A stretch of DNA of 42,727 nt from an uncultured Clostridia bacterium (lineage in GTDB: Bacteria > Bacillota > Clostridia > Christensenellales > Borkfalkiaceae), in the NCBI GenBank assembly GCA_947626005.1, contig CANQQM010000008.1, positions 1 to 42,727 of the forward strand, given 5' to 3'. Positions 18,259 through 37,490 of this stretch are shown piece after piece (position 1 is the first letter of the stretch; every line of letters begins with the position of its first letter). The notes under the pieces are model-generated. The model worked only from the letters and a program-made list of their open reading frames with translations, was not told where the DNA came from and did no database searches. The position numbers were made by a program, and so were the translations under genes.

Positions 18259-18304
18259 AGTCTTTCCCTCCGAGGCCGAACACGACCCTTCGGCCTTTTC
18301 TTTC

Positions 18305-18333
18305 ATTATATGGTTCCGCGCGGGCGATGTCAA
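18305..18333 (-). promoter_or_regulatory. Perfect sigma-A consensus promoter of the LRR lipoprotein gene
   Basis: Minus strand TTGACA (18333-18328), 17-bp spacer, TATAAT (18310-18305). Confidence 0.88.
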
Positions 18334-18424
18334 ATACTTTTCGCCCGATTTATGCTTATACGCGATTTTATGCATATTTTTTCAAAAATTTGTTAAAAAA
18401 CACAGAAAATCTCAAAGAATATCC

Positions 18425-18456
18425 AAAAGGACGGGGAATGCGCCCCGTCCTTTTTG
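18425..18456 (-). terminator. Terminator at the end of the glycan operon
   Basis: ggacgggg aatgcg ccccgtcc stem with A/T runs on both sides, directly downstream of the GH36 stop at 18471. Confidence 0.8.
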
Positions 18457-18470
18457 TATTTTTGCAAAAT

Positions 18471-20621
18471 TTATTCCTCCGCCTCGAGGAGCCATGTCCA
18501 CGTCTCAAAGTCGTGTGCGGCGCGGGGAAGGAGAAGCCCCGCGTTTTGGAGCGCCGCCCCCGTGAGCGACCTTTGAAGGGAGGGAACGAAGTAGCGTTTT
18601 TCGGGATCGAGCCCGCGGAGACGGACGCGGCGGGGATAGTCCGCGGCGGCGGCGTGCGCCGTCATGCCGACAACATAGGCGCGGGAACGGTCCCCCGACA
18701 CGACCTCCATGCAGAAGTAGTTGCCGCGGAAGGGATCGAGGAGGCGGTAGGCGTCGCCGAAGAGGAGGAGAGGTTCTATGGAGCGATAGCGGGCGATCTG
18801 TCCGCGCACGGCCTCCTTTTCCTCCTCCGTGAGCTTACCGAGGTCGAGCTCGTACCCCGTCGCGCCGAGGGAGGCGATGTCCCCCCGCGAAGAGAAGGGG
18901 GTCGTCCGCCCCGTCTGGTGATTGGGACAGGCCGAGACGTGGCAGCTCATCGCCGAAAGCGGATAGGCGAAGGAGGTCCCCCACTCGATGCGGGCGCGGT
19001 CGAAGGCGTCGGTGTTGTCGCTCGTCCAGATCTGCGGGAAATAGTAGAGCATGCCCGCGTCGAAGCGGCCGCCCCCGCCCGAACAGCCCTCGAAAAAGAC
19101 GTCCGGGAAGGCCGCCTTGAGCCTTTCCGCCAAGGCGTACACGCCGAGCATGTAGCGGTGGGAGAATTCCCCCTGCCGCGCCGCGGGAAGGGCCTCCGAC
19201 GTGAATTCGGTGAGGTGGCGGTTCATATCCCACTTGACGTACCCGACGCCGCAGCGGAGGATGTTCTCCATCGCCCCGAAGAGGTAGTCGACGACCTCGG
19301 GACGGGAGAAGTCGAGAACGTACTGATTGCGGCTCTCGGCGCGGGGGGAACGCCCCACCGTCCAGTCGGGGTGGGCGCGGTAGAGTTCGGACTTTTCCGA
19401 CACCATCTCGGGCTCAAACCAGATGCCGAAGGTCATCCCCCTCTCCCTGCAGCGGGCAATGAGGGGGGCAAGGCCGCCGCGGAGCTTTTTCTCGTTGACG
19501 AACCAGTCGCCGAGGCCCTCCGCGTCGCTGTTGCGGCTTCCGAACCAGCCGTCGTCGAGCACGAAGGTATCGATGCCGAGCTCGGCCGCCTCGTCGATGA
19601 GGGCAAGAAGGCGGGGGGGCGTGAAGTCGAAATAAGTCGCCTCCCAGTTGTTGCAGACGACGGGGCGGGACCGCATCGCCTCCATGCAGGCAACGTGGGC
19701 GCGGAGGAAGCGGGAGAGGGTGCGGGAAAGCCCCCCAAGTCCCTCTTTCGAGTACGAAATCATCGACTGGGGTGTGAAAAACATCTCGTTCGGGGCAAGT
19801 TCCCACGAGAAATTCGTGTCGTCGATGCCGCCGCGGACGCGGATAAGGTCGGTCTGCGAACGCTCCGCCTCGAGGACGAACGACCCGCTGTAAATCAGCC
19901 CGAATCCGTAACATTCCCCCCTCTCCTCGTCGGCGTTCCCGAGGAGGAGCGCAAGGAAGGGATTGGCTTGGTGGGAGGACGCCCCGCGGGAGGAACGGAC
20001 GGCGATCGACCCGTGTCCGAGCGGCGTCTCCTCGGGCATGCGCTCGTTGGCGTGCCGCCCCACAAGGCGCACGGCGCGGACGTCGCTTTCGAAGAGGTCG
20101 ACGGAAAAGGCGTCGGCGCGGAGGAGGGTCGCATGGGCCGTTCCGCGGTTTGCGACGGAGGCGGAGCGGACGATAACGTCCGAATCGTCGAACACGGTGT
20201 AAAAAAGATGCACCGTGAGGCTCGAACGGGCGTCTTTGAGGTCGATGCGAAGGGTCTGTCCTCCCCGCGCATGCGGCATGTTCGGGACGCCCCCTTCCGT
20301 GAAGGCGTGGCCCGTATAGAGGAGACGGGAAGCGCGTTCCCCGTCCTCCCGCACGGCAAGAAAGGCGGGGATGCGGAAATCCCCCTGCCCGTACGTTCCG
20401 TACTCCTGGCGGACGGTGTCGAGGGAGAAGTCCCCGCCCGCCCCGGGCGGCGTCGGGGAAAAGCTCAAAAAGCTCGGCGCGTTGAGGTAGGAGAGATCGT
20501 CCTCTGCCTTGGGGCCGAAATAAAGGTGCTCGAGGTAGCCGTATTCGTCGACACGGAAAAGATAGCTCACCTCCTTCCCGTGGAGGAAAAAGGTGCGCGT
20601 TTTTTCGTCAAACTTGATCAT
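18471..20621 (-). CDS. Alpha-galactosidase, glycoside hydrolase family 36
   Basis: NNWEATYFDF, FVLDDGWFGSRNSDAEGLGDW, WFEPEMV, YVKWDMNRHLTE (nucleophile Asp), FEGCSGGGGRFDAGMLYYFPQIWTSDNTDAFDR. Confidence 0.95.
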   Translation of the reverse strand: MIKFDEKTRTFFLHGKEVSYLFRVDEYGYLEHLYFGPKAEDDLSYLNAPSFLSFSPTPPGAGGDFSLDTVRQEYGTYGQGDFRIPAFLAVREDGERASRLLYTGHAFTEGGVPNMPHARGGQTLRIDLKDARSSLTVHLFYTVFDDSDVIVRSASVANRGTAHATLLRADAFSVDLFESDVRAVRLVGRHANERMPEETPLGHGSIAVRSSRGASSHQANPFLALLLGNADEERGECYGFGLIYSGSFVLEAERSQTDLIRVRGGIDDTNFSWELAPNEMFFTPQSMISYSKEGLGGLSRTLSRFLRAHVACMEAMRSRPVVCNNWEATYFDFTPPRLLALIDEAAELGIDTFVLDDGWFGSRNSDAEGLGDWFVNEKKLRGGLAPLIARCRERGMTFGIWFEPEMVSEKSELYRAHPDWTVGRSPRAESRNQYVLDFSRPEVVDYLFGAMENILRCGVGYVKWDMNRHLTEFTSEALPAARQGEFSHRYMLGVYALAERLKAAFPDVFFEGCSGGGGRFDAGMLYYFPQIWTSDNTDAFDRARIEWGTSFAYPLSAMSCHVSACPNHQTGRTTPFSSRGDIASLGATGYELDLGKLTEEEKEAVRGQIARYRSIEPLLLFGDAYRLLDPFRGNYFCMEVVSGDRSRAYVVGMTAHAAAADYPRRVRLRGLDPEKRYFVPSLQRSLTGAALQNAGLLLPRAAHDFETWTWLLEAEE

Positions 20622-21468
20622 GGGTGCCTCCTTTTCCGAGATAGGTCGTCTTGATGCTCCGCGTAAGGGCCTCCCCCGCGCCGAGGAGGGCGACCCCCTC
20701 CTTTTGCGAAAATTCGCATACCGTCCCCGCCCGATCGGGCAAATTCATCCACGGTTCGATGCACAAAGCGGACGCGCCCTCGGGCCGCCAGAGGAGGAGG
20801 AAGGGAAAGCCCGTAAAGGCAATTTCCGTCGCTTCGCCGTCCGCAAGCAGGGTCGCACGGTCGGAGCGGACGCGGAAGATGAGCGTATTGCCCCCCTTAA
20901 GCGCCTCCTGCGGAATTTTAAGTACCCGTCCCCCGCCGTATTCGTGCGTTTCGCCCGTGAGCCGCCCTTCCCCGTCGTGTAAAAGCGCCGTAAAGTTCTC
21001 CTCGTGCGGAAAGACGAGCGACGCGCCGCCGAAGTCGCGGACGGGATAGGAGGCGTGCCCGCCGAAGGAGAGCGGCATGGGCGTTTTGCCGAGGTTGACC
21101 GCCTCGAAACGGGTCTCAAAGCTCGTCCCCGCGGCGGTGTGCACGACGTCGAGGGAGAACTCGAAGGGATAGCGGGCAAGCGTCTCCCCGTCCGAGCGGA
21201 GCCGCAGCCGCACGAAGTCCTCCCCGCGGCTTACAAGGGTAAATTCCCTCTCCCGCGCGAATCCGTGCTTTTTTATGGGGAAGTCCTCCCCGCCGACGCG
21301 CATCGAGCAGTTCCCGCAGACGGGGAAAAGGAGGGGCGAATGCCCCGCCCATGTGTTGTTTTCGTTCTGCCAAAGCCGCTCTTTCCCGTGGGCGACGATG
21401 CTTACGGGCTCCGCCCCGCGGGAGGAAATTTCCGCCGTGAGCGCTCCGCTTTCAATGCGATAATTCAT
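20608..21468 (-). CDS. Aldose 1-epimerase family protein
   Basis: AEISSRGAEPVSIVAHGKERLWQNENNTWAGHSPLLFPVCG, IKKHGFARE, LSFGGHASYPV; galactose-mutarotase-like. Confidence 0.85.
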   Translation of the reverse strand: MNYRIESGALTAEISSRGAEPVSIVAHGKERLWQNENNTWAGHSPLLFPVCGNCSMRVGGEDFPIKKHGFAREREFTLVSRGEDFVRLRLRSDGETLARYPFEFSLDVVHTAAGTSFETRFEAVNLGKTPMPLSFGGHASYPVRDFGGASLVFPHEENFTALLHDGEGRLTGETHEYGGGRVLKIPQEALKGGNTLIFRVRSDRATLLADGEATEIAFTGFPFLLLWRPEGASALCIEPWMNLPDRAGTVCEFSQKEGVALLGAGEALTRSIKTTYLGKGGTHDQV

Positions 21469-21508
21469 CTATGAAACCGCACCCGACGGGCGGGTGCGTT
21501 CTCCTTTT

Positions 21509-22756
21509 TTATTTTCTGAGTTCGATCCGCGCCCCGCCTTGGAGGCGGGATTCTTCCGCGGCGAATGCCATGAGGTGGCTCTCGACCGATGCTTCGAGCG
21601 AAGTCTCGTTCGTCCCCTCTCCCGAGAGGACTTCGATGAGCCGTGCGACGAGCCCGCGGTCGCCGCCGCCGTGCCCGTACCCCTCTTCGATGAGGGCGGA
21701 GATCTTGAGCTCTCTTTGCGGCTCTCCGAATTTTCGGAGGGTGAGTTTATCCGTCGCCTCGTCGAGCTCCAAGTCGCCGAGGGTGCCGAAGAAGCGGTAA
21801 TTCCTGCCGCATTCGGCCGTGAAGCCCATCATCGTGAGCGTCGCCGTGACCGAATTTTCAAAGACGATCTCCGCCGTCTGATGATCGACGACGTCGTTAT
21901 CGCAGGCAAAGACGCACCGCCCGTAGGGGCCCTTTTCGATGGCCTCCCCGATGCTCTGTTCGGAGAGCGGATAGCGCGCCGCCTGAAGATAGGGCCATGC
22001 CGAAACGGGGCTGCCCTCCGCCTTCCAGCGGTCGAGGTAGATGCGCTTGGCGCTGTAGGGGCAGCTCTCGACGTACTTGCAACGAACGCAGCGTTCCGCG
22101 GCGCCTTCGGGGGCATTCTCCCTCTTGAAATAGGTGAGTTCCCCCGTCGAGGAAATGCTCTTTGCGCGCGAACAGGCGTAGTATTGGAGAAGGTCGAGGT
22201 CGTGGCAGCACTTCGCGAGGATCATGGGCGCGGTCTCGTCGCGGCGGCGCCAGTTGCCGCGGACATAGCTGTGCGCGACATGCCAATAGGCGACCCGCTC
22301 GAGCGCCTGAACGGAGACGAGTTTCCCGATCGCCCCCTCCTCCAAAAGTTCCTTTGCCTTCACGAAGGCGGGAGCGTAGCGGAGGACGTGGCAGACAAGC
22401 ACCTTGCCGCCGTATTTCTTCTGTGCGGCAAAAAGCGCCTCGCACTCCTCACGGCTGTCGGAAATGGGCTTTTCGAGGAGAAGGTCGTACCCGAGCGCCA
22501 GTGCGCGGATGCCTTGGCGGACGTGGTCGCGGTCGAGGGAGGCGATGACGAGAAGATCCGCGCGCCTCTTTTCGAAGAATTCCTCCTCCGAGGAGAATCC
22601 CTCCGCCCCGAAGAGGTCGGAATAGGTTTGAAGGCGCACCTCGTCGGGATCGCACAGGGCGACGACGGAGATGCGTCCGCTCTCCTTGAAGAGTTTTCCG
22701 TACGTTTCCGCCCCGCGGTTTCCGCAACCGAGGATGGCAGCCGTAAAGTGTTTCAT
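21509..22756 (-). CDS. Gfo/Idh/MocA family oxidoreductase
   Basis: AILGCGNRGAETYGKLF, VVALCDPDEVRLQTYSDLFGAEGFSSEEEFF, DLLVIASLDRDHVRQGIRALALGYDLLLEKPIS. Start at MKHFTAA; upstream part of the ORF is spurious. Confidence 0.93.
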   Translation of the reverse strand: MKHFTAAILGCGNRGAETYGKLFKESGRISVVALCDPDEVRLQTYSDLFGAEGFSSEEEFFEKRRADLLVIASLDRDHVRQGIRALALGYDLLLEKPISDSREECEALFAAQKKYGGKVLVCHVLRYAPAFVKAKELLEEGAIGKLVSVQALERVAYWHVAHSYVRGNWRRRDETAPMILAKCCHDLDLLQYYACSRAKSISSTGELTYFKRENAPEGAAERCVRCKYVESCPYSAKRIYLDRWKAEGSPVSAWPYLQAARYPLSEQSIGEAIEKGPYGRCVFACDNDVVDHQTAEIVFENSVTATLTMMGFTAECGRNYRFFGTLGDLELDEATDKLTLRKFGEPQRELKISALIEEGYGHGGGDRGLVARLIEVLSGEGTNETSLEASVESHLMAFAAEESRLQGGARIELRK

Positions 22757-22763
22757 TTCTTCC

Positions 22764-23471
22764 TCACTTGACGTCCGACATGAAGCCCTCATGCGAGGTG
22801 AACACGCGGACAAACATTTCGGTGATCTGTTGGGGACGGGTGATCGCCCCGCCGATGATGACGTGACGGATGCCCGTGTCGAGCACGGAGCGAAGGGTCG
22901 CGAAGGCGTTGATGCCGCCCTCGGCAACGACCGTCGCGTTCTTGATGCTCCCGAGGAGCTGTTTGCAGAATTCGGGGTCGGGAATGGAGAACCCCTTCGT
23001 CTCCTCCGTGTAGCTCCTTAAGGTCGTAGAAACGTAGTCGACGCCCAAATCGTCTGCGGCAAGCGCATCTTCGAGGGTGGCGATATCCGCCATGATGGCC
23101 TTATCCGAATAGTCGCGGATATATCGGACGAGCTCGGAAAGCGGCGTCCCGTGGGGGTGAGGGCGGACCGTCGAATCGAGGGCGATGACGTCGCACTCGG
23201 AGGCGATGAGCGCCTTGATCTCCCGCTTCGTGGGGGTGATGTAGACGGGAGAATCGGAATAGTCCCGCTTGATGAGGCCGATGATGGGGAGTTTCCCCTC
23301 GAGCTTTTTGTGGATCGCATTGATGTCGCGCACGGTGTTGGCGCGGATGCCGATCGCGCCGCCGAGGTAGGCGGCAAGCGCCATCTTGGGGATCGTGTCG
23401 CCGCCGTAGAGGGGCTCGTGCCTGAGTGCTTGACACGAAACGACAAGGCCCATCGGGATCACGTTTTTCAT
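22764..23471 (-). CDS. nanE: N-acylglucosamine/N-acetylmannosamine-6-phosphate 2-epimerase (NanE family)
   Basis: GLVVSCQALRHEPLYG, GAIGIRANTVRDINAI, GLIKRDYSDSPVYITPT, DVIALDSTVRPHP, IMADIATLEDAL, VVAEGGINAFATLRSVLDTGIRHVIIGGAITRPQQI. Confidence 0.93.
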   Translation of the reverse strand: MKNVIPMGLVVSCQALRHEPLYGGDTIPKMALAAYLGGAIGIRANTVRDINAIHKKLEGKLPIIGLIKRDYSDSPVYITPTKREIKALIASECDVIALDSTVRPHPHGTPLSELVRYIRDYSDKAIMADIATLEDALAADDLGVDYVSTTLRSYTEETKGFSIPDPEFCKQLLGSIKNATVVAEGGINAFATLRSVLDTGIRHVIIGGAITRPQQITEMFVRVFTSHEGFMSDVK

Positions 23472-23523
23472 AAAAATCCTTCCTTTCTTTATTCGGGAAG
23501 TCCTGAGCATTCGTCGGACTTCG

Positions 23524-25482
23524 TCAGTTTGCAAGTCCTTCGCGGAAGGCCTCGAGAAGAGGCAGAAGATCCGCATAGGTGTTGTTCCTCGGGTCGTAGA
23601 TCTGATAGCGGTTGGTGACCGTCGACCCGTCGGCGTAGTCGTTCGCGTTGAACCAGATCGCGCCCTTGATTTGTTTTACATAGTCGGCGGGCTCTTCCGC
23701 ATTCAGCTCTTCGAACATGTCGCGCACCCACTTTAACTGGACGTCGCGATTCCTGCCGAGTTCGCCAGAATAGTCCCCGCCCGAGCCGCAGCCGAATTCG
23801 GAGAGGATGACGATCCAATCGCCGAACGCGGGCTGATTCTTCTCGTACAGCCCCGCGTAGAGTTCGCGGAAGCTCTTGCAGCTCGTCGGCGCGGCAGAAG
23901 CCGCATAGTTGTTGAGTTCGTAGTACGTTCCGCCGAGGATCTGCACATATTCCCGCCCGGGGAAGTAGCAAAGGTCCTCTCCCCACCCCGAGTAGGGGCA
24001 GGACGTCGCGACGGGATTCCAGATCCAGATCGCGTTGTCGACGCCGACTTCCTCGAAGATGTCGTAGAGCCGCCGCCACGTGATCGTGAAGATATCGGGA
24101 TCGAGCAGGGTGATGAGCCCGCAATAGCTCGTCCAGTCGGTGTTCATCTCGTTGTTGAGGCGGAAGAGCACGGGATGGCGGTAGTTCTTGATGTCCTCGG
24201 CGAGTTCGCGGAACTGTCCGTCGTACTTGCCGCGCATGATGTCGAACATGGGCGTCGACCCCATGAGGTTGTTGTTCCCCGTGAACTGGTAGGTGAACTG
24301 CAGAACGGGCTTTCCGTTCGTGCCGTTCCCGCCCGCAAGTTCCTCTGCCATGTAGATGGGGAAACGCACCTTCTCCCCCGCATAGGAGAGCGCCGTGTAG
24401 GTCGGGTAGATGTCGTATTTCCACCCCCACGCCTCCTCGATGCCCTTCTCGTAGCGGGTGCTGAGGTCGAGCACATAGGTGTAGTTGGGGTCGGTGGGAA
24501 GATATTCGTCGCGGTAGCCCGGCATCGACATACTGAAGGCGCCCCAGAGGACTTCCTCCCGCGTAAGGAGGCTTTCAAAGTACGCCGCCGTCTCCTCGTT
24601 CCAACGGGGGTTGGGGAGGGGCTTTTCCGCCGAGAAGTAGTTGCGCGGGATCCCCTTCGACGGGATGCGCCGATAACTTTGGATGACGGTATCGAGGATG
24701 GACGAAGCGTCCTCCTTGCCCTTTAAGACAAAGATGGCGACTTCCTTCACTTCCTCCGCCTCGCGGATCGCCGCGATGTGGTAGTGGTCGCGCTCGATCT
24801 CCCCTTCCGTGTTCTCGAGGAGGAGGTCGTAGCGGTAGACGTCGTACCCGGGCTTTATTTCGAGGTTGCCGTGCGGCGACTCCTGCGTGAAGCGGAAGCC
24901 GGCCTCGCGCAGACGGGAAATGCCGTTGGCCTCGAGGAAGCCGTCGCCGAAGTACTTGAAGACCCACTCGCTGCAATACTTATACCATGCGTCCGCATCC
25001 GCCGTGTAGGGGTTGCCCGCCTCGAGGCTCGCCGTGAGGATGTTCTCCCCGAAGGTGTACTGCGTGCGGTATTTGGCGATGGAATAATCCGCCTCGTACT
25101 CTGCGGCGGGAAGGGTGAACACATACCCCGCGGAGAGATTCGCAAGGCGCACCGCGCTCTCCGTACGAAATTCGAGCTTGACGTCCCGGCGGGAGGACAT
25201 CTCCTTGAAGGAGCTCTTGTACTCTCCGTTCACGAAGATGCGGGCAGAGGAAAGCGCCGAGGCGGCGGAAAATCCGTTCGCCTCGTCTTTGAGTTCCCCG
25301 TCGGGATAGAGCTCCTCGAACGCGTACTCAAGAGAGCTCTTATCCGCCATGGCGTCCTTTCCCGAGGAGGGCGGCGGATCGTCGCCCTCCCCGCCGACAG
25401 GCTGCCGATCGCACCCCGCAAGCGGCAGGATCGCCGCCGCAAGCAGGGCGCCTCCGACAAGCAATGCTTGCCAACGTTTCAT
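23524..25482 (-). CDS. GH26-like glycoside hydrolase lipoprotein (paralog A)
   Basis: Lipobox AILPLAGC; FRLNNEMNTDWTSY (GH26-like acid/base region), AIWIWNPVATSCPYSGWGEDLCYFPGREYVQILGG, VILSEFGCGSGG (nucleophile-like). Start at MKRWQALLVGG. Confidence 0.75.
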   Translation of the reverse strand: MKRWQALLVGGALLAAAILPLAGCDRQPVGGEGDDPPPSSGKDAMADKSSLEYAFEELYPDGELKDEANGFSAASALSSARIFVNGEYKSSFKEMSSRRDVKLEFRTESAVRLANLSAGYVFTLPAAEYEADYSIAKYRTQYTFGENILTASLEAGNPYTADADAWYKYCSEWVFKYFGDGFLEANGISRLREAGFRFTQESPHGNLEIKPGYDVYRYDLLLENTEGEIERDHYHIAAIREAEEVKEVAIFVLKGKEDASSILDTVIQSYRRIPSKGIPRNYFSAEKPLPNPRWNEETAAYFESLLTREEVLWGAFSMSMPGYRDEYLPTDPNYTYVLDLSTRYEKGIEEAWGWKYDIYPTYTALSYAGEKVRFPIYMAEELAGGNGTNGKPVLQFTYQFTGNNNLMGSTPMFDIMRGKYDGQFRELAEDIKNYRHPVLFRLNNEMNTDWTSYCGLITLLDPDIFTITWRRLYDIFEEVGVDNAIWIWNPVATSCPYSGWGEDLCYFPGREYVQILGGTYYELNNYAASAAPTSCKSFRELYAGLYEKNQPAFGDWIVILSEFGCGSGGDYSGELGRNRDVQLKWVRDMFEELNAEEPADYVKQIKGAIWFNANDYADGSTVTNRYQIYDPRNNTYADLLPLLEAFREGLAN

Positions 25483-25492
25483 ACCCTTCTCC

Positions 25493-27550
25493 TTACTTCT
25501 TTGCCGCCGCAAATCCGTCACGGAAGGCCTGCCACGTCTCGGCAAGGTCGGTGTAGGTCTCGCCCGGACGGTCGCCGATCTCGGCGTCGGTGAACTTGAG
25601 ACGGTTGGTGATCGAGCTGCCGCTGTAGTCGTTGCAGTTGAACCAGATGAGGCCCTTAATTTGCTTCACATAGTCGGCGGGCTTTTCCGCGTTGAGCTCG
25701 GTGAACATGTCGCGGACCCACTTCGCCTGTGCGGCACGGTTTCTGCCGAGCGTACCCGTCGCGTTGCCGCCCGAACCGCAGGCGAACTCGCCGATGATCA
25801 TGCTGTATTCGGAGAAGTAGTCCTTATTCTTCTCGTACAGCTTGCTGTAGTGCTCTTGGAAGGAGATCATCTGCGTCGAAGCGTCGCCCGTGTAGTTGTT
25901 GAACTCGTAGCAGGTGCCGCCGAGCAGCTGGACGTACTCGACGCCCGGGAAGTAGCAGAGGTCTTCGCCCCAGCCCGAATAAGGTGCGCTCACGCCGATC
26001 GGGTTCCACACCCAGATGACGTTTTCGACGCCGTTCTCGATGAAGATGTTGTAGAGCCGCTTCCACGTCATCGTGAATATGTCGGGATCGAGCAGATTCA
26101 TGATGCCCGAATAGCTCGTCCAGTCGGTGTTCATCTCGTTGTTGAGACGGAACATGATGGGCTTGCCGTACTGCTTGATGTCGAGCGCAAGGCGCTTGAA
26201 GTAATCGTCAAACTTGCCGCGCATGATATCGAACATGGGCGAAACTTCCTGATCGACGAGGTTGTTGTTGGTCGTAAACTGGTAGGTGAATTCGAGGACG
26301 GGCTTGGTGCCGTCGCCGTTGCCGCCCGCAAGTTCCTTCGACATATCGACGGGATAGTAATGCGGGACGCGCTGGGGATTGTCCGCGGCGCCCGACCCGA
26401 GGTGGGTATAGGTCATGTAGACGTCGAACTTCTTGCCGCCCCAAACTTCCTCTTCGATGTATTTCTGCATCGTCTTGCTTCTGGAGAGGTAGGTGTCGTA
26501 GTTGCCGCTGCCTGCGTGGAGGTTATTCGCCTCGCCCGGCATCGAATAGCTGAACACGCCCCAGCTCTTCGTCTCCTGCGAGCAGAACTGGCGGAAGAAG
26601 GCGGTCGTCTCCGCATTCCAGTGCGGATCCTCGACGGGCTTCCCGGGGTCGAAGTAGTTGCGCTGGAGCCCCTTGGAGCCGAACTGGGTGTAGGATTGGA
26701 GGATGGCGTCCATCATCTCCGCCTTGTTCGACTTGGACTTCATGACGAAGAGGCCGAAGCTCTTTACGTCGTTGACTTCGTGGATGATGCCGATGTTATA
26801 GAACGGCCGCTCGATGTCCCCCGCGTCCTCGATCTCGAGGTCGAAGCGGTACACTTCGTACCCGTCGCGGAAGGTGAGGTCGCCGTGCTGCACCGTGGGA
26901 TAGGCGCGCTCGCCGTCCGACGTCCCGCTTGCGGGATCGACGGGCGTCACGTCGAATTTGAGGTCGGAAAGACGGGTGATGTGCTGATTCTCCATGTACT
27001 TGTCGTTGACAAGGTGGCGGATCGCCCACTCGTTGACGTACACATACCATGCGTCGGGGCGCGACGTATAGGGATTCTGATATTCCGCGCTGAAGGTCAA
27101 AATGGAGTCGTCGAACGTGTACTGGGTGCGGTATTTTGCGATCGTGTAATCGGTCGTGATCTCCGAGCTCGTCGGAATGGTGAATGCCATGCCCGCCGAA
27201 ACGTTGGCCATACGCGCCGCCTTGCCGTTGTAGAGCTCGAGCTTTACGTCCTGACGGCTGCCGACCGAACTGAACTTCTCAAGATATTTCCCGTTCTGGA
27301 AGAAGCGTGCGCCCGTGACGTCCGTCCCCTGCGAGAATCCGTTCGCCGCGTCCTTGAGTTCGCCCTTCGGATACAGCCCCTCGAGCGCGAAGTTGAGCGA
27401 TTCGCGGTCGGTCTGGAGCTCCGTTCCGACGGTCGAGGGCGTCTCGTCCGGATTGGGATTGGGATCGGGATCGGGTACATGGTTGCACCCCGCGAGGCAA
27501 CTCGCGCCGAGCATCGTGATCCCCATAAGAACAGCTGTGAGTTTCTTCAT
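25493..27550 (-). CDS. GH26-like glycoside hydrolase lipoprotein (paralog B)
   Basis: Lipobox ASCLAGC; clear paralog of the adjacent protein; FRLNNEMNTDWTSY, VIWVWNPIGVSAPYSGWGEDLCYFPGVEYVQLLGG, MIIGEFACGSGG. PDPDPNPNPDE linker after the lipobox. Confidence 0.75.
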   Translation of the reverse strand: MKKLTAVLMGITMLGASCLAGCNHVPDPDPNPNPDETPSTVGTELQTDRESLNFALEGLYPKGELKDAANGFSQGTDVTGARFFQNGKYLEKFSSVGSRQDVKLELYNGKAARMANVSAGMAFTIPTSSEITTDYTIAKYRTQYTFDDSILTFSAEYQNPYTSRPDAWYVYVNEWAIRHLVNDKYMENQHITRLSDLKFDVTPVDPASGTSDGERAYPTVQHGDLTFRDGYEVYRFDLEIEDAGDIERPFYNIGIIHEVNDVKSFGLFVMKSKSNKAEMMDAILQSYTQFGSKGLQRNYFDPGKPVEDPHWNAETTAFFRQFCSQETKSWGVFSYSMPGEANNLHAGSGNYDTYLSRSKTMQKYIEEEVWGGKKFDVYMTYTHLGSGAADNPQRVPHYYPVDMSKELAGGNGDGTKPVLEFTYQFTTNNNLVDQEVSPMFDIMRGKFDDYFKRLALDIKQYGKPIMFRLNNEMNTDWTSYSGIMNLLDPDIFTMTWKRLYNIFIENGVENVIWVWNPIGVSAPYSGWGEDLCYFPGVEYVQLLGGTCYEFNNYTGDASTQMISFQEHYSKLYEKNKDYFSEYSMIIGEFACGSGGNATGTLGRNRAAQAKWVRDMFTELNAEKPADYVKQIKGLIWFNCNDYSGSSITNRLKFTDAEIGDRPGETYTDLAETWQAFRDGFAAAKK

Positions 27551-27590
27551 CGTTTCATTCTCCTTATCATCATTGCCTTGCGGCGATTTT

Positions 27591-29354: not shown

Positions 29355-29365
29355 ACCCTACCTCC

Positions 29366-29950
29366 TTATGAGATGCCGACGATGAGCGTGAAGCTCGCCG
29401 CGTATTTACCGCAAGTGACGGTGATGGTGCATTCCCCGCGCTTGACGGCCGTGACGGTCGCAACGAAGCCCTGTCCGTCGACGGTGCCGATCGCGCTGTC
29501 CGAAGTCGTCCAGACCGCCGTCTCCTCGTCGAGCGCGATCTCGCTGTGCGCCCTCACAGACGCCGTTCCCGCCGCCTTGAGGACGAGGATGCCCTCGGGA
29601 ATGAACACGGAGAGCGGCGACCCTTCCACCTTGACGGTGCAGCTTGCGACTTCTTTTTCGCCCTGCATCAGTTTGACTTTGGTCTCCCCGACGCCCGTCC
29701 CGCGGACGGTCACGGCGTACTCCCCGTTCTCTTCGGAGAGGGTGACGTTCGAAACGACTGCGACCGATCCGTCCTCCGCCTCCCACGTAAGGCCCTCCGT
29801 CTTGCCCTTTACGGAGGCGGTCAGCGTATAGGACGCGCCGACGGTGAGTTCGATCTCCTTAACGCTCAGCGTCGCGCCGCCGCCCGAACAGGCCGCAAGC
29901 GCCGCCGTGCACAGAAGGAGCATGGCAACGATCCACCAAGTTTTCTTCAT
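29366..29950 (-). CDS. Small lipoprotein with bacterial Ig-like (Big2-type) domains
   Basis: Lipobox AALAAC; IELTVGASYTLTASVKGKTEGLTWEAEDGSVAVVSN...VTVRGTGVGETKVKL; ALDEETAVWTTSDSAIGTVDGQGFVATVTAVKRGECTITVTC. Confidence 0.75.
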   Translation of the reverse strand: MKKTWWIVAMLLLCTAALAACSGGGATLSVKEIELTVGASYTLTASVKGKTEGLTWEAEDGSVAVVSNVTLSEENGEYAVTVRGTGVGETKVKLMQGEKEVASCTVKVEGSPLSVFIPEGILVLKAAGTASVRAHSEIALDEETAVWTTSDSAIGTVDGQGFVATVTAVKRGECTITVTCGKYAASFTLIVGIS

Positions 29951-29959
29951 AGTTCCTCC

Positions 29960-31936
29960 TCAGACCCCGAAGAGTTTGTCGCGCTCGATGTGTAGCACGC
30001 GGAAGGGGGTCTCCGCTTTGTTTCTTGTCGTATAGTGATTGGTCTCGGTCCAACGGAGCACGATGGAATTGCCCAAATCGTCCTCGAAGTGATAGCTTCC
30101 CGACCCGCTCACGAGGAAGGTGAGCTCGGTGTAGCCGTCGAGCTTGTTGCCGACGTCCGAGAAGAGCTTCCCGCCCGCAAGGTTGAGGGGAATACAAGAG
30201 TTCCCCCGCATAAAGACGGGCAGATGTTCCTCCCCGTATGTGACTTCGAGCCGCCCCGCCTTCACGGGTTCGCCCGTGAAGAGGTCGTACCACGTGTCGC
30301 GGGGAAGATAGACGCGGCGGGTCTTTGTGTAGTCGTCGAGGACGGGCGCGATGAGCAGCGCATCCCCGAGCATGAACTCATCCTCGATCGAATAGACGGA
30401 GACGTCGTCGGGGAACTCGAGCGCGAGATGCCGAAGAGGCGGCGCACCCGTCCTGCCCGATTCGAGCATGAGCGCGTATTGATAAGGGATGAGGTTGTAG
30501 TGCAAAAAGAACTGTTTGCGGAGGAGCTCGAGGAGCTTCTCGTCCTTATGGAAGGCGGCGATGTTCCAAGGGCTCCTGTCGTTTGTTTTCCATGCGCCCG
30601 AGAAGTCGCAGCGCTTGTTGGAGACGGGGTCGCTGTGCCACTGCATGACGGGCGCGAACGCCGCCGTCTGCACGGCGCGGAGGTAGAGCTCGCGCGTCGG
30701 GAGGTAGCCCGAGAAGCCCGCGATGTCGAATCCCCAGCATCCGATGCCCGAGAGCCCCGCGGAGAGCCCCGCCTTGAGCACGGAGCGGAATTCCGACCAC
30801 GTCGACTCCTGATCCCCCGCCCAGACGACGGTGAATGTGGGGCTGTGCTGTCCGCCCGCCCTCGAAAAGACGACGCCCTCGGGGCCGATGAAGTCGGCAA
30901 AGGCGCGGGTGTACTGTTCGCTGTAGGCGTTCTGTCCTTCGATCCCCGTCGTCCCGTCCGAGAACTTGACGGTGCGGTCGTGGATGAACTCCCCGCCGTC
31001 CGTCTTGAATCCGTCGACGCCGATCTCCTTCAAGTGGTTGAAGTGGGCGAACCAGTGCTTGCGGGTCGTCTCCTTCGTGAAGTCGGGGACCATGCTTCCG
31101 ATGCACCATGTGTGCGGAATTTCGTAGGGCGTGCCGTCGGCGTTTGAGACGCATTCGCCGTATGCCTTCACGTATTCGTTGTCGCGGAGGCACTGCTCGA
31201 CGTTGCACTTCGTCTCGAGGTTCTCCCCCTGCGCATAGATGGGAATGACCCATAAAAGCACATGGAGGCCGTCTGCATGGAGGGCGTCGACAAGCCCCTT
31301 CGGGTCGGGCCACGGGCTCGACTTGGGGAAGCGCATCTCCGAATAGGAGGCGGCTTCGTTCCCCTCCTTGGGCGGAACGACCGACCCGTTCCAAAGATAG
31401 TGGGTCGTGAGGTCGCTCCACGGCTCGATGACGAGGACGTTGTGCGGGAAGTTATGGCGCTTGGCAAGGAGACGCTGCTCCTCCACTTCCGCCTGCGTGT
31501 GCCAGCGGTTGGCGCTCATCCATGCGCCGAGCACCCACTTGGGGAACACGCGCGGAAATCCCGCCAGATTGCGGAATTGGCGGAGGATCTCCTTGGGCGT
31601 GCCGTCGAAATACCACACGTCCGCCTGTTCGCCGTTGCTTCCCGCCGGGAAGGAGATGGTGAGCTCCCCCTCCTTCGTGAAGTCGAAATCCACTTCGACA
31701 TAGGTGTCGACGTAGATCCCGAACCCGTCGGGCGTCAAAAAGAAGGGCATGGAGAGATAGGCGTATTCTCCCTGATAGAAGCACTTCTCGCGCACGCAGG
31801 CGCGGACGAAGCATCCCTTCTGGTTGACGTGATCGAATTTCTCGCCGAACCCGTACACCGCGCGGTATTCGCGTTCGAGAGTGAGGCGGAATCCCTCCTC
31901 TGTCCGCAAGATGTGTTTCGCGTTGATCTTTTTCAT
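29960..31936 (-). CDS. Glycoside hydrolase family 31 (alpha-glucosidase/alpha-xylosidase-like)
   Basis: VYGFGEKFDHVNQKG, FPKWVLGAWMSANRWHTQAEV, GVDGFKTDGGEFI (nucleophile Asp), WAGDQESTWSEFRSVLKAGLSAGLSGIGCWGFDIAGFSG. Confidence 0.95.
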   Translation of the reverse strand: MKKINAKHILRTEEGFRLTLEREYRAVYGFGEKFDHVNQKGCFVRACVREKCFYQGEYAYLSMPFFLTPDGFGIYVDTYVEVDFDFTKEGELTISFPAGSNGEQADVWYFDGTPKEILRQFRNLAGFPRVFPKWVLGAWMSANRWHTQAEVEEQRLLAKRHNFPHNVLVIEPWSDLTTHYLWNGSVVPPKEGNEAASYSEMRFPKSSPWPDPKGLVDALHADGLHVLLWVIPIYAQGENLETKCNVEQCLRDNEYVKAYGECVSNADGTPYEIPHTWCIGSMVPDFTKETTRKHWFAHFNHLKEIGVDGFKTDGGEFIHDRTVKFSDGTTGIEGQNAYSEQYTRAFADFIGPEGVVFSRAGGQHSPTFTVVWAGDQESTWSEFRSVLKAGLSAGLSGIGCWGFDIAGFSGYLPTRELYLRAVQTAAFAPVMQWHSDPVSNKRCDFSGAWKTNDRSPWNIAAFHKDEKLLELLRKQFFLHYNLIPYQYALMLESGRTGAPPLRHLALEFPDDVSVYSIEDEFMLGDALLIAPVLDDYTKTRRVYLPRDTWYDLFTGEPVKAGRLEVTYGEEHLPVFMRGNSCIPLNLAGGKLFSDVGNKLDGYTELTFLVSGSGSYHFEDDLGNSIVLRWTETNHYTTRNKAETPFRVLHIERDKLFGV

Positions 31937-31939
31937 AAC

Positions 31940-33448
31940 TCAGTCTTTGGTTTTCAGGACGAAGTCCATTTCGAAGGTGCGGTTCCACGGTGCGCTCACG
32001 TCGACGTCCTCGACGAGCGCCGCGAGCTCGGGATAGTTCTCCCCCATGTAGCGGAGAAGTTCCCTCTTGGCCGCTTCGACGCACTTTCCGCGCTCGCCGT
32101 CGAGCACGAATACGGTGCAATTGTTTTCGGGGACCGCATGGACGTCGATCCATGTGCGCGTGTGCGAACAGTAGCCGACGTCGTCGTAGTAGCGGTGGAG
32201 GAGGAAGTCGCGGTTGCCCCGCTCGTCCCTTCCGAGAAAATAGAGACAGGATTGGCAGAGAACGGTGCCGAGGGTGTTGCTCGACGTGTTCCAGCCCGCA
32301 TAGGCGGTGAGGGAAAGAAGCAGCCCCTCGTCCCGCAGGATGCGCATGAGTTCGAGGTCGTTGTGGGTGGGATAGGCAACGTCCGCAACGGCGACGAGTT
32401 TTCCCCGAAGAATCCCTTCGCGGATCTCGTCGATGAATTCGGGGAGACTGCGCTCCACGTCGTAGGCGGCGGTCGCCTGCTCCCAAGTGGCCTCGTAGAG
32501 CATTTCCGCGCCGATGTTGACGGCAAGAAGGATGTCGCACTCGGGGAGGCTGTACACCCGCCTTGCGCCTGCCGCGCGGATCTGGTTTTTCACGGTCGCG
32601 TCGATCGTGCGGTCCTCGAAGGAGGGAACGACAAAGGGCCCCTTCGCCGAGGCGTAATAGACATAGACGCGGGGCGTGACGCCGTTTAACTCGTTGAGGG
32701 CGCGGGCAAGGAGGGTCATCCCCGTGTCGTCCGCGGCGGGATAGACGGGCACCTTGAGCTGAAGTCCCCTCTCGATGAGGTACTTCCGCACCTTCTCTTG
32801 ATCGAGGGAGGTGAAGCCGTAGGGGGCGCTGTCGTCCTGCGGGATGATGAACCCGTCGACCGTCCCGTCCTCCACGGCCGCAAGGGTGCGGAAGAGCACT
32901 TCGAGGTTGACGGCGCGGCGGGAGGTATAGTCCTCGAGGTCCCCTTCGGGGATCTTCGCCTTGACCCGCGCAAAGTCCTTTTCTTCCTCTTCCGTCAACA
33001 GCCCGAGCCGCGCGCGGTGGGTGTATTTGCCGAAGAGATGGATCTCCGCCCCGCACTCCGCGTAGTAGTCGGGCTCCTCGTCGGAGAGGGAATAGAACGG
33101 GCAGCGCATGACCGTCTCGAAGGCGTAAATTTTCAGTTTGGGATAGCGGGCACGCAGCCGCCGAAGGATCTCCGCGCGGGAGAAGAGCTCTTCCTTCGGG
33201 GTGTGGTGCAGACGGGAGGGAATGAGACCGCCGTAGACGAGGGTATCCATCGAGAGGATGCACGCGTCCGCGTCCGCCGCCGCTTCCATCAGCCAATCGG
33301 CAAGGCGGAGCACGTCGGCGGGGCGTTTTTTCAACCCCAGTAGCGATTTCGGCGGGAGCAGAAGGGTGTGATCGGCCTTCGGCATGAGCGCGGGGAAACG
33401 GTAGTTGCAAGGGCGCTCGTCGAGGGGCACGAGGAGGATCTTCTTCAC
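31940..33448 (-). CDS. DUF4127 family protein
   Basis: KKILLVPLDERPCNYRFP, LSMDTLVYGGLIPSRLHH, FIIPQDDSAPYGFTSLDQEKVR, PVYPAADDTGMTLLARALNEL, recalled as DUF4127 hallmarks. Confidence 0.85.
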   Translation of the reverse strand: MKKILLVPLDERPCNYRFPALMPKADHTLLLPPKSLLGLKKRPADVLRLADWLMEAAADADACILSMDTLVYGGLIPSRLHHTPKEELFSRAEILRRLRARYPKLKIYAFETVMRCPFYSLSDEEPDYYAECGAEIHLFGKYTHRARLGLLTEEEEKDFARVKAKIPEGDLEDYTSRRAVNLEVLFRTLAAVEDGTVDGFIIPQDDSAPYGFTSLDQEKVRKYLIERGLQLKVPVYPAADDTGMTLLARALNELNGVTPRVYVYYASAKGPFVVPSFEDRTIDATVKNQIRAAGARRVYSLPECDILLAVNIGAEMLYEATWEQATAAYDVERSLPEFIDEIREGILRGKLVAVADVAYPTHNDLELMRILRDEGLLLSLTAYAGWNTSSNTLGTVLCQSCLYFLGRDERGNRDFLLHRYYDDVGYCSHTRTWIDVHAVPENNCTVFVLDGERGKCVEAAKRELLRYMGENYPELAALVEDVDVSAPWNRTFEMDFVLKTKD

Positions 33449-33452
33449 GAAA

Positions 33453-34358
33453 TCACCCCTTCACCGAGCCGATCTGCAGCCCGCTCTTGATGTACTTGAC
33501 GACATACGGGTAAAGGAGAAGGATGGGAATGATACTTGCGACCATCGCCGCCGCCTCGACGTTCTGCCCGTTTGCCATGAGCCAAGAGTTGTTCTTATCG
33601 AGCGTCTTGTTCTGCAGCATGAGGTAGATGTAGTAGGCGAGAGGCTGGGCAAGTTTCCCCTGTGCGGACTCGGAGATGAAGAGAAGCGCCGAGCCGTAGC
33701 TGTTCCATGTTCCGACGATGGTGAAGAAGCAGCAGCTCCCGATGATGGGCAGCGACATCGGCACGACGATCAAGAAGAAGAGCTGAAGGTCGCCTGCGCC
33801 GTCGAGCCGCGCCGCTTCCTCGATATCCGTCGGGATGCCTTCGAAGAAGGTCTTGAAGTAGAGGAGGTGCGTGACGTTGCTGATCGAAATGAGAATGACC
33901 GACCAGATGGTGTCGAGCAGTTTGAACATGTACATGACGAGGTAGATGGGCACGATCCCGGCGGAGAAGAGCATCGTGATGATGAAGTACATCAGGATCC
34001 CGCCGCGGAAGGGGCAGTCGCGCTTGGAGAGCGGATAGGCCGCCATCGCCTCGACAAGGTTGGAGACGACCGTCACGATGAGGGTGATCGCCACCGAGTT
34101 CCCGAACGCCCGCCAGAAGTCGGCCGCGCCGTCCCCTGCGAGGACGTACTTGAACGCGGCGAAGGTCGGCCGAACGGGGAAGAATACGACATTGATGTTG
34201 AAGTTCCCGTCGTTGAACGCGAGCGAGAAGTAGTTGAGAAGAGGCAAAACGACGATGAGGACCATCGCGAAGAGAAGGACGATATTGAGGACGGAAAGTC
34301 CGATATCGAGCTTGCTTTCGCGGATCTTGTTGGGGTTCTTTTGGAATGGATTCTTCAT
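33453..34358 (-). CDS. Carbohydrate ABC transporter permease (LplC/YtcP-like)
   Basis: Six-TM permease; EAMAAYPLSKRDCPFRGGILMYFIITMLFSAGIVPIYLVMYMFKLLDTIW; EAARLDGAGDLQLFFLIVVPMSLPII (EAA motif); TIVGTWNSYGSAL. Confidence 0.95.
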   Translation of the reverse strand: MKNPFQKNPNKIRESKLDIGLSVLNIVLLFAMVLIVVLPLLNYFSLAFNDGNFNINVVFFPVRPTFAAFKYVLAGDGAADFWRAFGNSVAITLIVTVVSNLVEAMAAYPLSKRDCPFRGGILMYFIITMLFSAGIVPIYLVMYMFKLLDTIWSVILISISNVTHLLYFKTFFEGIPTDIEEAARLDGAGDLQLFFLIVVPMSLPIIGSCCFFTIVGTWNSYGSALLFISESAQGKLAQPLAYYIYLMLQNKTLDKNNSWLMANGQNVEAAAMVASIIPILLLYPYVVKYIKSGLQIGSVKG

Positions 34359-34374
34359 ACCTTTATGCCCCTCC

Positions 34375-35415
34375 TTACCAAAGTCCGCGGTGCATCGTCT
34401 TGGACGTTATCTTGTTGCCGACAAGCATGAGCGTCAGGGCGATGATGCCGTTGAATACGCCGAGCGCCGTTGCGAACGGGATGTTCGTGCGGTTGACGAC
34501 GGAGATCTTGTAGAGATAGGTATCGAGGATGATCTGCGATTCTTCGAGGACGCCGGCGTTGATCTGCATCATCGTGTAGACCTGTTCGAAGCCCGCGGCC
34601 ATCATGCCCGAGATGTTGAGAACGAGCATGAGCGCGATCGTCGGCATGATCGAAGGAATGGTGAGATACCACATCTTCTGCAGACGGTTTGCGCCCTCGA
34701 GGGTGGCGGATTCGTAGTACGACTTGTCGATCGCCATGATCGCCGAGTAGAAGAGGATGCACCCCCACCCTGCGCCCTTCCACGCCGAGAAGAACACGAC
34801 GAGCGGTTTGAACCACGCATCCTTTGCCATGATGTGCCCCGTCACTCTTCCGAGGAGCCCGATATCGGGGTTGAGAAGCCCCGCCCAGATACCGATGACG
34901 ATCGCCCACGAGAGGAAGTTCGGGATACTGATGATGATGAGGATGGTCTTTGCAAGCCCCTGATTCTTGAGCTCGGAGAGCTGCACCGCGATGAAGATGG
35001 AGAGCGGGAAGCAGATGAAGAGGCGGATGACGTTGATAAGCAGCGTATTCCCCACGGCGCGGTAGAAGGACTTATCGACGAAGATGTCGAGGAAGTTCGT
35101 AAACGTCCACGTCCCGTGCGAGAGGTTCCAGAGGACGTCCCCTTTCGTCAGGTTGAACTCGGGCCCCTTGAAGGCGAAGAGAACGCCGAGCATGGGCAGA
35201 TAAGAAAAGACCAGTGTAAAGAGCGCAGCGGGAAGCAGGAACCAAAGGAGCTTCCGATACTTCTTGATGCGTTTACACTGATCTTGCCAATAGGTGGGTT
35301 CTCGGTGTTCGTTTCGCACCGTTTCCGCGGCTTGCTCTTGAGGAGCCGGGGGGGCGAGCTCCCCTGCCGATCGCTCGGCAGGGGTCTCGACTGTTAAATT
35401 CTCGAATTGATCCAT
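34375..35415 (-). CDS. Carbohydrate ABC transporter permease (LplB-like)
   Basis: LLWFLLPAALFTLVFSYLPMLGVLFAFK, GAGWGCILFYSAIMAIDKSYYESATLEGANRLQKMWYLTIPSIMPTI (EAA-type motif); N-terminal cytoplasmic extension. Confidence 0.94.
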   Translation of the reverse strand: MDQFENLTVETPAERSAGELAPPAPQEQAAETVRNEHREPTYWQDQCKRIKKYRKLLWFLLPAALFTLVFSYLPMLGVLFAFKGPEFNLTKGDVLWNLSHGTWTFTNFLDIFVDKSFYRAVGNTLLINVIRLFICFPLSIFIAVQLSELKNQGLAKTILIIISIPNFLSWAIVIGIWAGLLNPDIGLLGRVTGHIMAKDAWFKPLVVFFSAWKGAGWGCILFYSAIMAIDKSYYESATLEGANRLQKMWYLTIPSIMPTIALMLVLNISGMMAAGFEQVYTMMQINAGVLEESQIILDTYLYKISVVNRTNIPFATALGVFNGIIALTLMLVGNKITSKTMHRGLW

Positions 35416-35449
35416 ACGATCACCTCTTTTTTCGGGAAGGCCCGAAAGG

Positions 35450-37324
35450 TCAGCGGCCCAACTTGACGCTGTTGTACCACTCGGTCATTTCGTCGGAGAT
35501 CGCGTCCGACCAGTAGAAGTACTTGACGCCGTTCTTCTTGGCGAAGGTCGTCTTGGCGCCTTCGCGGGTGGTGTTGAGGGAGCTTACGCATTCCTCTGCG
35601 GAGGACTGATCGATCGCCGTGCAGATGCCGTTTTTGAGAAGGGTCCTCGAGAGGATGGAGATGGGCGCCCACAGCTTCATCGGGGGGCACATCCACATCG
35701 GGTTGGGGATGCGGCCGATGCCCTCGTTGTCGGCGACGGGCCATGCGTCGAAGCCCGTTTCTCGGAGGTGGAAGAGGGACTTCGCCGAAATGGAGTTGGT
35801 GCCGTTGCAGTACTGGGAGTTGTCGGCGATGTGGGCGATGTAGCGATCGGTGAGTTGGATCCACTGGCCGCCGCCTTTGACGGTGATCTCCTCCTGCCCC
35901 ATCGTCTCTTCGTCGAGGATGTTGCCCTTCGAAGGATCGGTGTTGTAGTAGCGGGTGTACTTATACTCGTAGGGACGGATGAAGATGATCTTCTTCGCGA
36001 GGTCCTCGTGCGCCGTGAATTCGGCGTCCGTCTCGGGGGTATAGGTCTCGGGCGCGGGTGCGCCTTCGGGGGTGGGAATGACGTTCCAGTGCGTCCCCTC
36101 TTCGCCGGCGTAGAAGCGGTCGAAGTTCACCATCTTCTTTGCGAGGAAGTCGATGATGTAGAGGGCGTCCTCCGCCATGTACTGCGGGATGACGGTGTAG
36201 TAGGAGACGCCGCCGGGGTCGCCCTCAAGACGGCCCACTTCCTGTACGACCGACTCGTCCGAGCCGTCGCCCTTGATACGGAGGGACCATGCGACCGCGT
36301 TGTCGCGCATGTACTCGTAGTTATTGAGGGTGTCGGCGCCCGTCGTATCGATCCCCATGGACTTTGCGATCATGCCGTTGGAGACGACGGCGTTGACGAG
36401 CGCGGTCATGTTCCAATAGGAGATGTAGGTGCAGGAGTTGAGTTCCTGTGCGAACTTCTGATTGGCGCCCGCCTGCGATTCCCCTTGCCATGCGTCGGAG
36501 AGGATCCCTTCGCGGCGGAGTTTGTTCATGTACTTCGCATAGCGGGTGGTGTTGTCGCTGAAAACGTACTGCTGGATCTTGCCGTTCTCGTCGACGTAGA
36601 AGTTCCACGGAACTTCGAACGCACTCTTAATCTGCGAAATTTCGACGCTGTTGCTCCCGGGGATGCCGAGCGCGTGATAGGCGGTGTCGTCGGCGCCGAA
36701 CTTCTCCTGAAGGTGCTCGAGCGCCCATGTGACCTGTCCGAGCGTTTCGGGAATGTCTACGCCGTACTGGTCCTTAAAGCCGATCTGCTCCAAGTGGTTG
36801 ACGTTCCACACGAGGGCGGAATCGGTCATGCAGACGAAGCCGAAGTCGGGGATCGCATAGATGTGCTCCTGCCCTTCGTTGTCGACGTACTTCACCGAAT
36901 CCCAGCCGTAGTCCATGAGGTCGATGAGCTGATAGAGCGTCCTGCCCGCCTCCGTCTTGGTGAGAAGATCGGTGAGGTCGAGGAAGGTGCCGTCCTCGAG
37001 GTAGGGGTGATACTGCGCCTCGGTCAGCTTCATGATGTGGAACTCTTCGGTGGTCGAAAGGAAGTTGTTTACGTCGTTGTCGGCGTTGCTTCCCATCTCC
37101 TGATAGGTCATCTTGTAGCCGGTGGCCTTTTCGATGATCTTGGACGAGTCGTCGTCGCCGAAGGAACCGAGGCCGGTCTCGGGATAGAGGCCGCGAAGCG
37201 GAATGGGATTCGAGAGGTCGACGTCCCAATCGATCTCTGCCGTATATTCTACGCAACCGGCAAACGCCGCGAGGCCCGTGAGCATCATGGCGCCCGCCAT
37301 TGCGACGGATAACAGTTTTTTCAT
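35450..37324 (-). CDS. Extracellular solute-binding lipoprotein (LipO-type sugar ABC transporter)
   Basis: Lipobox AAFAGC; periplasmic-binding-protein-like, immediately upstream of LplB/LplC permeases. Start at MKKLLSVAMAG. Confidence 0.9.
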   Translation of the reverse strand: MKKLLSVAMAGAMMLTGLAAFAGCVEYTAEIDWDVDLSNPIPLRGLYPETGLGSFGDDDSSKIIEKATGYKMTYQEMGSNADNDVNNFLSTTEEFHIMKLTEAQYHPYLEDGTFLDLTDLLTKTEAGRTLYQLIDLMDYGWDSVKYVDNEGQEHIYAIPDFGFVCMTDSALVWNVNHLEQIGFKDQYGVDIPETLGQVTWALEHLQEKFGADDTAYHALGIPGSNSVEISQIKSAFEVPWNFYVDENGKIQQYVFSDNTTRYAKYMNKLRREGILSDAWQGESQAGANQKFAQELNSCTYISYWNMTALVNAVVSNGMIAKSMGIDTTGADTLNNYEYMRDNAVAWSLRIKGDGSDESVVQEVGRLEGDPGGVSYYTVIPQYMAEDALYIIDFLAKKMVNFDRFYAGEEGTHWNVIPTPEGAPAPETYTPETDAEFTAHEDLAKKIIFIRPYEYKYTRYYNTDPSKGNILDEETMGQEEITVKGGGQWIQLTDRYIAHIADNSQYCNGTNSISAKSLFHLRETGFDAWPVADNEGIGRIPNPMWMCPPMKLWAPISILSRTLLKNGICTAIDQSSAEECVSSLNTTREGAKTTFAKKNGVKYFYWSDAISDEMTEWYNSVKLGR

Positions 37325-37399
37325 GTGATTTCCTCCCTTACGGATTTTGTTTGCGTTCGATGTGTCTTGTCTTGTTTGGAATTTGAATAATGGAAGCAA

Positions 37400-37437
37400 G
37401 GTGACCCTTCGACTTCGCTCAGGGTGACGGATCGGAA
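37400..37437. repeat. Short dispersed repeat copy 1
   Basis: ggtgacccttcgacttcgctcagggtgacggatcggaa, 38 bp; differs by one base from the copy at 37491-37528. Confidence 0.9.
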
Positions 37438-37490
37438 GCTCTGATTACGTCATACTGAGCCGTGCCGAATGTATCACCTTATTTTAATGC

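Follow-up and report, generated by a model that had tools for sequence, protein, structure and literature searches.

Gene content and conservation of the operon

The window analyzed here is a whole contig (C8; 42,727 bases) from the genome of an uncultured Clostridia bacterium, which comprises 1.37 Mb in 57 contigs and is 90.75% complete. It carries an operon of 13 genes on the minus strand (18471-37324), in which a gene of the anonymous family DUF4127 is found together with the gene for NanE, an N-acetylmannosamine-6-phosphate 2-epimerase. We put at roughly 50% the probability that this conserved operon serves to forage a complex glycan containing N-acetylmannosamine (ManNAc), and that DUF4127 is a hydrolase of a new kind, releasing ManNAc from an imported oligosaccharide. 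In the public genome collection, the nearest relatives of the window are bins of uncultured Clostridia. Many of these come from rabbit gut, as judged by the bin name 'Lapin', and there are chicken-gut relatives too.

Open reading frames and Pfam searches bore out an earlier, preliminary description of this DNA, which had listed 13 tightly packed, same-strand genes in the order given below: the intergenic gaps measure approximately 3-52 bp, and there is a single 14-bp overlap, between the aldose epimerase and GH36 genes, when the most plausible starts are taken from the translations. Twelve of the 13 assignments are supported by Pfam matches above their cut-offs. The exception is the first gene (35450-37324), coding for a putative solute-binding lipoprotein of 624 amino acids that found no usable match in Pfam, NCBIfam or PDB and whose assignment is based on a lipoprotein-type N-terminus and its position ahead of two permease genes, which it also adjoins in related loci. 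The ATP-binding cassette (ABC) permeases B (UgpA-like; 34375-35415) and C (MalG/UgpE-like; 33453-34358) both match PF00528 (BPD_transp_1), with 43 and 36 bits, respectively. They are followed by DUF4127 (31940-33448; PF13552, 492 bits), the proposed ManNAc-releasing enzyme, with 502 amino acids and no signal peptide, and by a cytosolic glycoside hydrolase (GH) of family 31 (29960-31936; Pfam 163 bits, and 414 bits to 5i0d, Lmo2446), whose nearest solved relatives are the cycloalternan-forming enzyme and related GH31 proteins. Next come a Big_2 lipoprotein (29366-29950; PF02368, 42 bits) and a secreted GDPD-domain protein (27591-29354; PF03009, 64 bits) with an N-terminal part of 250 amino acids that belongs to no known family. 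Two GH26-like lipoproteins, b (25493-27550; Pfam 30 bits) and a (23524-25482; PF02156, 39 bits), are paralogues with about 50% identity; in a, besides the Pfam match, both catalytic glutamate regions (NNEMNTDW and ILSEFG) align with those of the lichenase CtLic26A, the best, though weak, solved match of the two proteins. The identity of NanE (22764-23471; Pfam 181 bits) was confirmed by PRK01130 (257 bits against a cut-off of 189) and by 200 bits to the solved enzyme 1y0e. The last three genes code for a Gfo/Idh/MocA oxidoreductase (21509-22756; PF01408, 58 bits), an aldose 1-epimerase-like protein (20608-21468; PF01263, 55 bits), and an α-galactosidase-type GH36 enzyme of 716 amino acids without signal peptide (18471-20621; PF02065, 460 bits). 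The predicted terminator corresponds to a terminator-like minus-strand hairpin (18425-18454) at the 3' end of the operon with a 12-pair stem including 7 G-C pairs; being symmetrical, it might serve both strands. Promoter-like sites were not in excess in the operon region (2 found, against 4.7 expected from shuffled sequences).

To examine conservation, we compared the window proteins with the regions around DUF4127 genes from further genomes of this family, using six fetched contexts and 21 loci of a named collection; the two sets share some genomes, and some of the 21 loci end at contig ends. The order giant lipoprotein - solute-binding protein - permease B - permease C - DUF4127 - GH31 - Big2 - GDPD - GH26 - NanE was kept in the six contexts and in 20 of the 21 loci, the exception being L048. 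Apart from L048, NanE is present in every locus long enough to show one. The relatives carry one or two GH26 copies, and a few are without Big2, GDPD or GH31. NanE is followed by Gfo/Idh and/or GH36; the former is an accessory gene missing from several loci, the latter occurs in part of them, and few have an aldose epimerase. Protein identities are lowest for the giant lipoprotein and Big2 (about 30%) and highest for the permeases (about 80%). This recurring gene order excludes random adjacency, in keeping with the single operon proposed before, and the conserved block usually extends to the giant lipoprotein gene upstream. Since DUF4127 was found in only 15 of the 101 genomes of our family sample, the operon is accessory.

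Many relatives have a second DUF4127 cluster next door, beyond the giant lipoprotein, with genes for an RpiR regulator, an acyltransferase, another GH31, a GH20C hexosaminidase, a ROK kinase, DUF4127, a GxDLY/GDSL esterase and an NAGPA phosphodiester glycosidase. Among solved structures, its ROK protein has matches to glucokinases as well as to ManNAc kinases, and the families of this companion module would be fitting for an esterified, phosphodiester-linked N-acetylhexosamine polymer. Only one DUF4127 gene was found in the genome of the window, and at the contig end (42247-42727), where the companion module would begin, a search for it returned repeats only; the assembly breaks here in a direct repeat that differs from the palindromic elements described below.

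DUF4127 and its association with NanE

In a sample of 398 genomes of the phylum, DUF4127 was present above the cut-off in 63, approximately one in six, and a strong NanE in 44. Both occurred in 27 genomes, against 7.0 expected (one-sided Fisher test on genome lists entered by hand, P ~1e-13), and counting by family, a partial correction for shared descent, gave 15 against 4.4 expected (P ~6e-8; 142 families, from printed labels). Leaving aside the genome of the window, 26 genomes have both genes, and in 10 of these a NanE gene and a DUF4127 gene are no more than about 12 kb apart. The operons involved differ in make-up between lineages. A Paenibacillus operon reads solute-binding protein - permease - permease - (GH84) - DUF4127 - NanE - RpiR - ROK - flavin adenine dinucleotide (FAD) oxidoreductase, a Carnobacterium plasmid has NanE - Cof hydrolase - DUF4127 - phosphotransferase system (PTS) IIC - MurR/RpiR, and on a Priestia plasmid DUF4127 is surrounded by ROK, manA, PTS, NanE and RpiR genes. 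The RpiR-family regulator NanR binds ManNAc-6-phosphate (PMC12713135). In a rumen locus (L085), an N-acylglucosamine 2-epimerase (303 bits to 8bry, against 68 to cellobiose 2-epimerase) stands in the place of NanE, and this different enzyme for the same step between ManNAc and N-acetylglucosamine (GlcNAc) points to ManNAc itself. Across species, no other companions are as steady as NanE and DUF4127, whereas GH26 occurs in gut loci only. DUF4127, named but not commented on in the preliminary description, is the gene that tells most about the locus, being tied to NanE across the phylum, and it probably belongs to ManNAc metabolism, which upholds the earlier choice of ManNAc as the informative sugar. 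In three other loci (L152, L153 and L154), with the operon NanE-RpiR-ROK-solute-binding protein-permeases-GHL10/DUF4985-FAD oxidoreductase-GNAT-DUF4127-GH84, DUF4127 travels with DUF4985, another uncharacterized glycosidase-like family.

Based on a simple hydrophobicity rule, 36 of the 61 DUF4127 relatives in the phylum sample look exported. All except one of them have no NanE, ROK or RpiR gene nearby, whereas 13 of the 25 relatives without an export signal do have such a neighbor. Several exported relatives (L160, L162, L167, L186, L187, L190, L191 and L210) lie beside LytR-CpsA-Psr genes, or in the vicinity of D-Ala-D-Ala carboxypeptidase, sigma factor and SLH-domain genes. It is possible that the exported relatives act in the cell's own wall or spore envelope.

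The match of the window protein to PF13552 is full-length and includes the conserved motifs PLDERPCN, QDDS and GWNTSSN. An AlphaFold2 model from the single sequence was discarded (pLDDT 37.6); using an alignment of 60 homologues, the prediction reached a pLDDT of 94.7 and a pTM of 0.93. The conserved residues D9, R11, R78, R114, D204 (D/E), D205, D239, D355, N386 and N390 are mostly located just after β strands. Together with the alternation of strands and helices, this hints at an α/β barrel that may have its active site at one end. Foldseek matches in the PDB had E-values as low as 6e-5 but TM scores of about 0.2, so no fold was assigned; barrel enzymes were among these weak matches. The alignment contains no invariant lysine, and the family is used on either side of the cell membrane, for which a hydrolase is a more fitting candidate than a dehydrogenase, a kinase or a Schiff-base aldolase; the many exported relatives likewise fit a cofactor-free hydrolase. 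We consider hydrolase chemistry for DUF4127 an even bet. Among viral proteins, Foldseek returned one strong match (BFVD A0A346TNQ6, TM 0.79), and DUF4127-like sequence occurs in two unannotated fecal 'bacteriophage' fragments (GenBank MT838954.1, 2971-3384, and MT835857.1, 1-348). Two such fragments may be contamination or a true phage gene, and we do not claim a phage role. No mention of DUF4127 or its Pfam accession was found in the open-access library that was searched.

Transport, flanking sequences and related gene clusters

Pfam detected no ABC ATPase gene among the genes of the locus, and a UgpC/MsmX-type ATPase is encoded elsewhere in the genome (G000:C4:34439-35581; 466 bits against a cut-off of 432), which is the arrangement of an MsmX-dependent importer that had been anticipated for this operon. 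The locus resembles the MsmX-energized glycan importers of Firmicutes in having a solute-binding protein, two permeases and an ATPase encoded elsewhere, but differs from them in that its solute-binding protein belongs to no curated family. One ROK gene, located elsewhere, and the NagB family are also present in the genome.

The giant lipoprotein of 1474 amino acids (37822-42246, minus strand), which lies upstream of the operon in nearly all related loci, gave no family match. It is about 30-43% identical to its homologues in the relatives and diverges fast, and its own segments align to one another; perhaps it is a surface glycan-binding scaffold. The 497 bp between this gene and that of the solute-binding protein (37325-37821) contain REP-like repeats, in which palindromic elements of the CCTTCGACTTCGCTCAGGGTGA type recur. 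Downstream of the terminator lies a gene for a BspA-type leucine-rich-repeat protein (16165-18375, minus strand). A sigma-70-like site matching 12 of 12 positions (TTGACA-17-TATAAT; 18333-18305), located beyond the terminator, belongs to this next gene and not to the operon; as the site falls inside the listed open reading frame, the true start of the BspA-type gene is probably after it.

No standard utilization locus matches this gene set, as was concluded before. The Streptococcus pneumoniae N-glycan locus (PMC5215778) is similar in combining an ABC importer with glycosidases, and the companion module shares the GH20C-type and ROK genes; here, however, NanE, DUF4127, GDPD and NAGPA replace the N-glycan enzyme set, and no endo-glycosidase family was recognized. 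The related loci carry an RpiR-type regulator, a hexosaminidase and an amino-sugar kinase. Peptidoglycan recycling clusters also have these three functions, with MurR as the RpiR-family regulator. Different from such clusters, a ManNAc epimerase and DUF4127 are present here and no muramic acid enzyme was recognized.

Possible substrate and role of the operon

A search with the NCBIfam model found no NanA in the genome of the window (best score 118 bits against a cut-off of 382, a low-level signal that each of the 14 control genomes gave as well). This makes sialic acid an improbable source of ManNAc, which should come from elsewhere. TagA (PF03808) makes ManNAc-β-1,4-GlcNAc. In Paenibacillus alvei this disaccharide forms the repeats of the secondary wall polymer, and it is the equivalent of the one that serves in the synthesis of wall teichoic acid (PMC6030368). 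Within the family sample, five of the 101 genomes have a TagA-family gene; none was found in the genome of the window or in any of the 15 DUF4127-positive genomes. Without TagA, the locus should act on polymers of other organisms, which points to foraging rather than recycling of the own wall. As markers of ManNAc wall polymers in the phylum sample, TagA and CsaB were set aside, being near-universal (340 and 324 of 398 genomes) and of no discriminating value.

We infer the chemistry of DUF4127, the identity of the polymer and the order of the steps as follows. Outside the cell, the two GH26-like enzymes, GDPD, Big2 and the giant lipoprotein would trim and hold the polymer, and the ABC importer with its shared MsmX-type ATPase would take up oligosaccharides. 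Inside, GH31 and GH36 would strip α-linked sugars, after which DUF4127 would most likely hydrolyze the remainder, freeing ManNAc or, if uptake is by a PTS, its 6-phosphate. The ROK kinase encoded elsewhere would phosphorylate ManNAc, and NanE would convert the product into GlcNAc-6-phosphate for glycolysis. As to the polymer, a wall glycopolymer of other gut bacteria is the leading but tentative candidate, either a teichoic acid, in which ManNAc-GlcNAc is the linkage unit, or a secondary wall polymer built from repeats of this disaccharide. Going by family membership, GDPD, NAGPA and the esterase would fit a polymer with phosphodiesters and esters, compatible with teichoic acid, and GH36 and GH31 would fit α-linked decorations. 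Nothing on this system came up in literature searches that paired teichoic acid with NanE and GDPD, or degradation in the gut with the linkage unit.

Several points weigh against ManNAc foraging. GH26, GH31 and GH36 do not readily follow from a wall polymer, GH26 fitting least. At the Priestia locus, manA and an additional GH38 point to mannose. A strong NanE is missing from 36 of the 63 DUF4127 genomes and exported members have different surroundings, which means that part of the family may act on a substrate other than ManNAc. The association statistics are inflated by shared descent, for which the count by family corrects in part only, and the absences from the genome are provisional at its level of completeness. 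Finally, Foldseek found no good PDB fold match for DUF4127, and profile comparison with 15 families of the loci, glycosidases included, indicated no homology.

The best surviving alternative, though an improbable one, is a locus for plant or fungal glycan, in which galactomannan or mixed-linkage glucan is the target of GH26 and GH36, and in which NanE and DUF4127 either deal with a small amino-sugar portion or have moved on to a different epimerization. The two hydrolases do share one operon, a lichenase is the best solved GH26 match and the rabbit-gut relatives encounter plant glycan. However, Pfam detected no β-mannosidase or mannosyl phosphorylase family among the genes at 18471-42246 (no genome-wide search for them was made), which together with the weak lichenase match weakens the earlier hint at galactomannan. 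Moreover, it is NanE and DUF4127 rather than GH26 that persist outside gut loci, and in L085 NanE is substituted by another epimerase. Quite unlikely is a redox-assisted cleavage, in which Gfo/Idh or an FAD oxidoreductase oxidizes the sugar and DUF4127 is a lyase or hydratase acting on the keto-glycoside. Of 35 distant named loci, 25 have an FAD oxidoreductase beside DUF4127, as do 19 of 60 of the phylum sample, L091 has a Gfo/Idh gene with a xylose-isomerase-like barrel protein, and the Gfo/Idh of the window resembles BT_2159/BT_2158-type glycoside 3-dehydrogenases, at 32 and 24 bits that are far below the cut-off. Yet there is no constant redox partner, as the closely related loci lack the FAD enzyme and several of them Gfo/Idh too, the Carnobacterium locus has neither next to DUF4127, and exported members would be without cofactor supply.

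R. gnavus type nan clusters contain NanE, an importer, an oxidoreductase, ROK and RpiR. The nan clusters of S. pneumoniae and Ruminococcus gnavus are like our locus in NanE and the importer, with ROK and RpiR in related loci and ManNAc-6-phosphate as a likely intermediate, and DUF4127 occupies the place where NanA, missing here, would feed in ManNAc. Least probable of all is nevertheless a sialic acid route in which Gfo/Idh, which adjoins NanE in the window, works as in the 2,7-anhydro-N-acetylneuraminic acid pathway of R. gnavus (PMC7535918) and DUF4127 replaces NanA as a lyase yielding ManNAc and pyruvate, given that DUF4127 lacks an invariant lysine for a Schiff base, many members look exported, Gfo/Idh is missing from several related loci, and Pfam detected no sialidase family among the genes of the locus (the genome was not searched for sialidases).

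Returning to ManNAc foraging, the pairing of DUF4127 with NanE and the epimerase swap in L085 give an anonymous family a concrete substrate hypothesis. Many Gram-positive walls are built with ManNAc-β-1,4-GlcNAc, and no paper of the open-access library searched contains the word N-acetylmannosaminidase. In a broader and rather doubtful extension, DUF4127 would be a new glycosidase family that includes dedicated N-acetylmannosaminidases, with cytosolic members feeding NanE after uptake of ManNAc-oligosaccharides, exported members trimming ManNAc wall polymers, and gut Clostridia without such polymers eating those of their neighbors. If the substrate hypothesis is right, DUF4127 would be a tool enzyme for wall glycopolymers, and gut bacteria would feed on the wall polymers of others.

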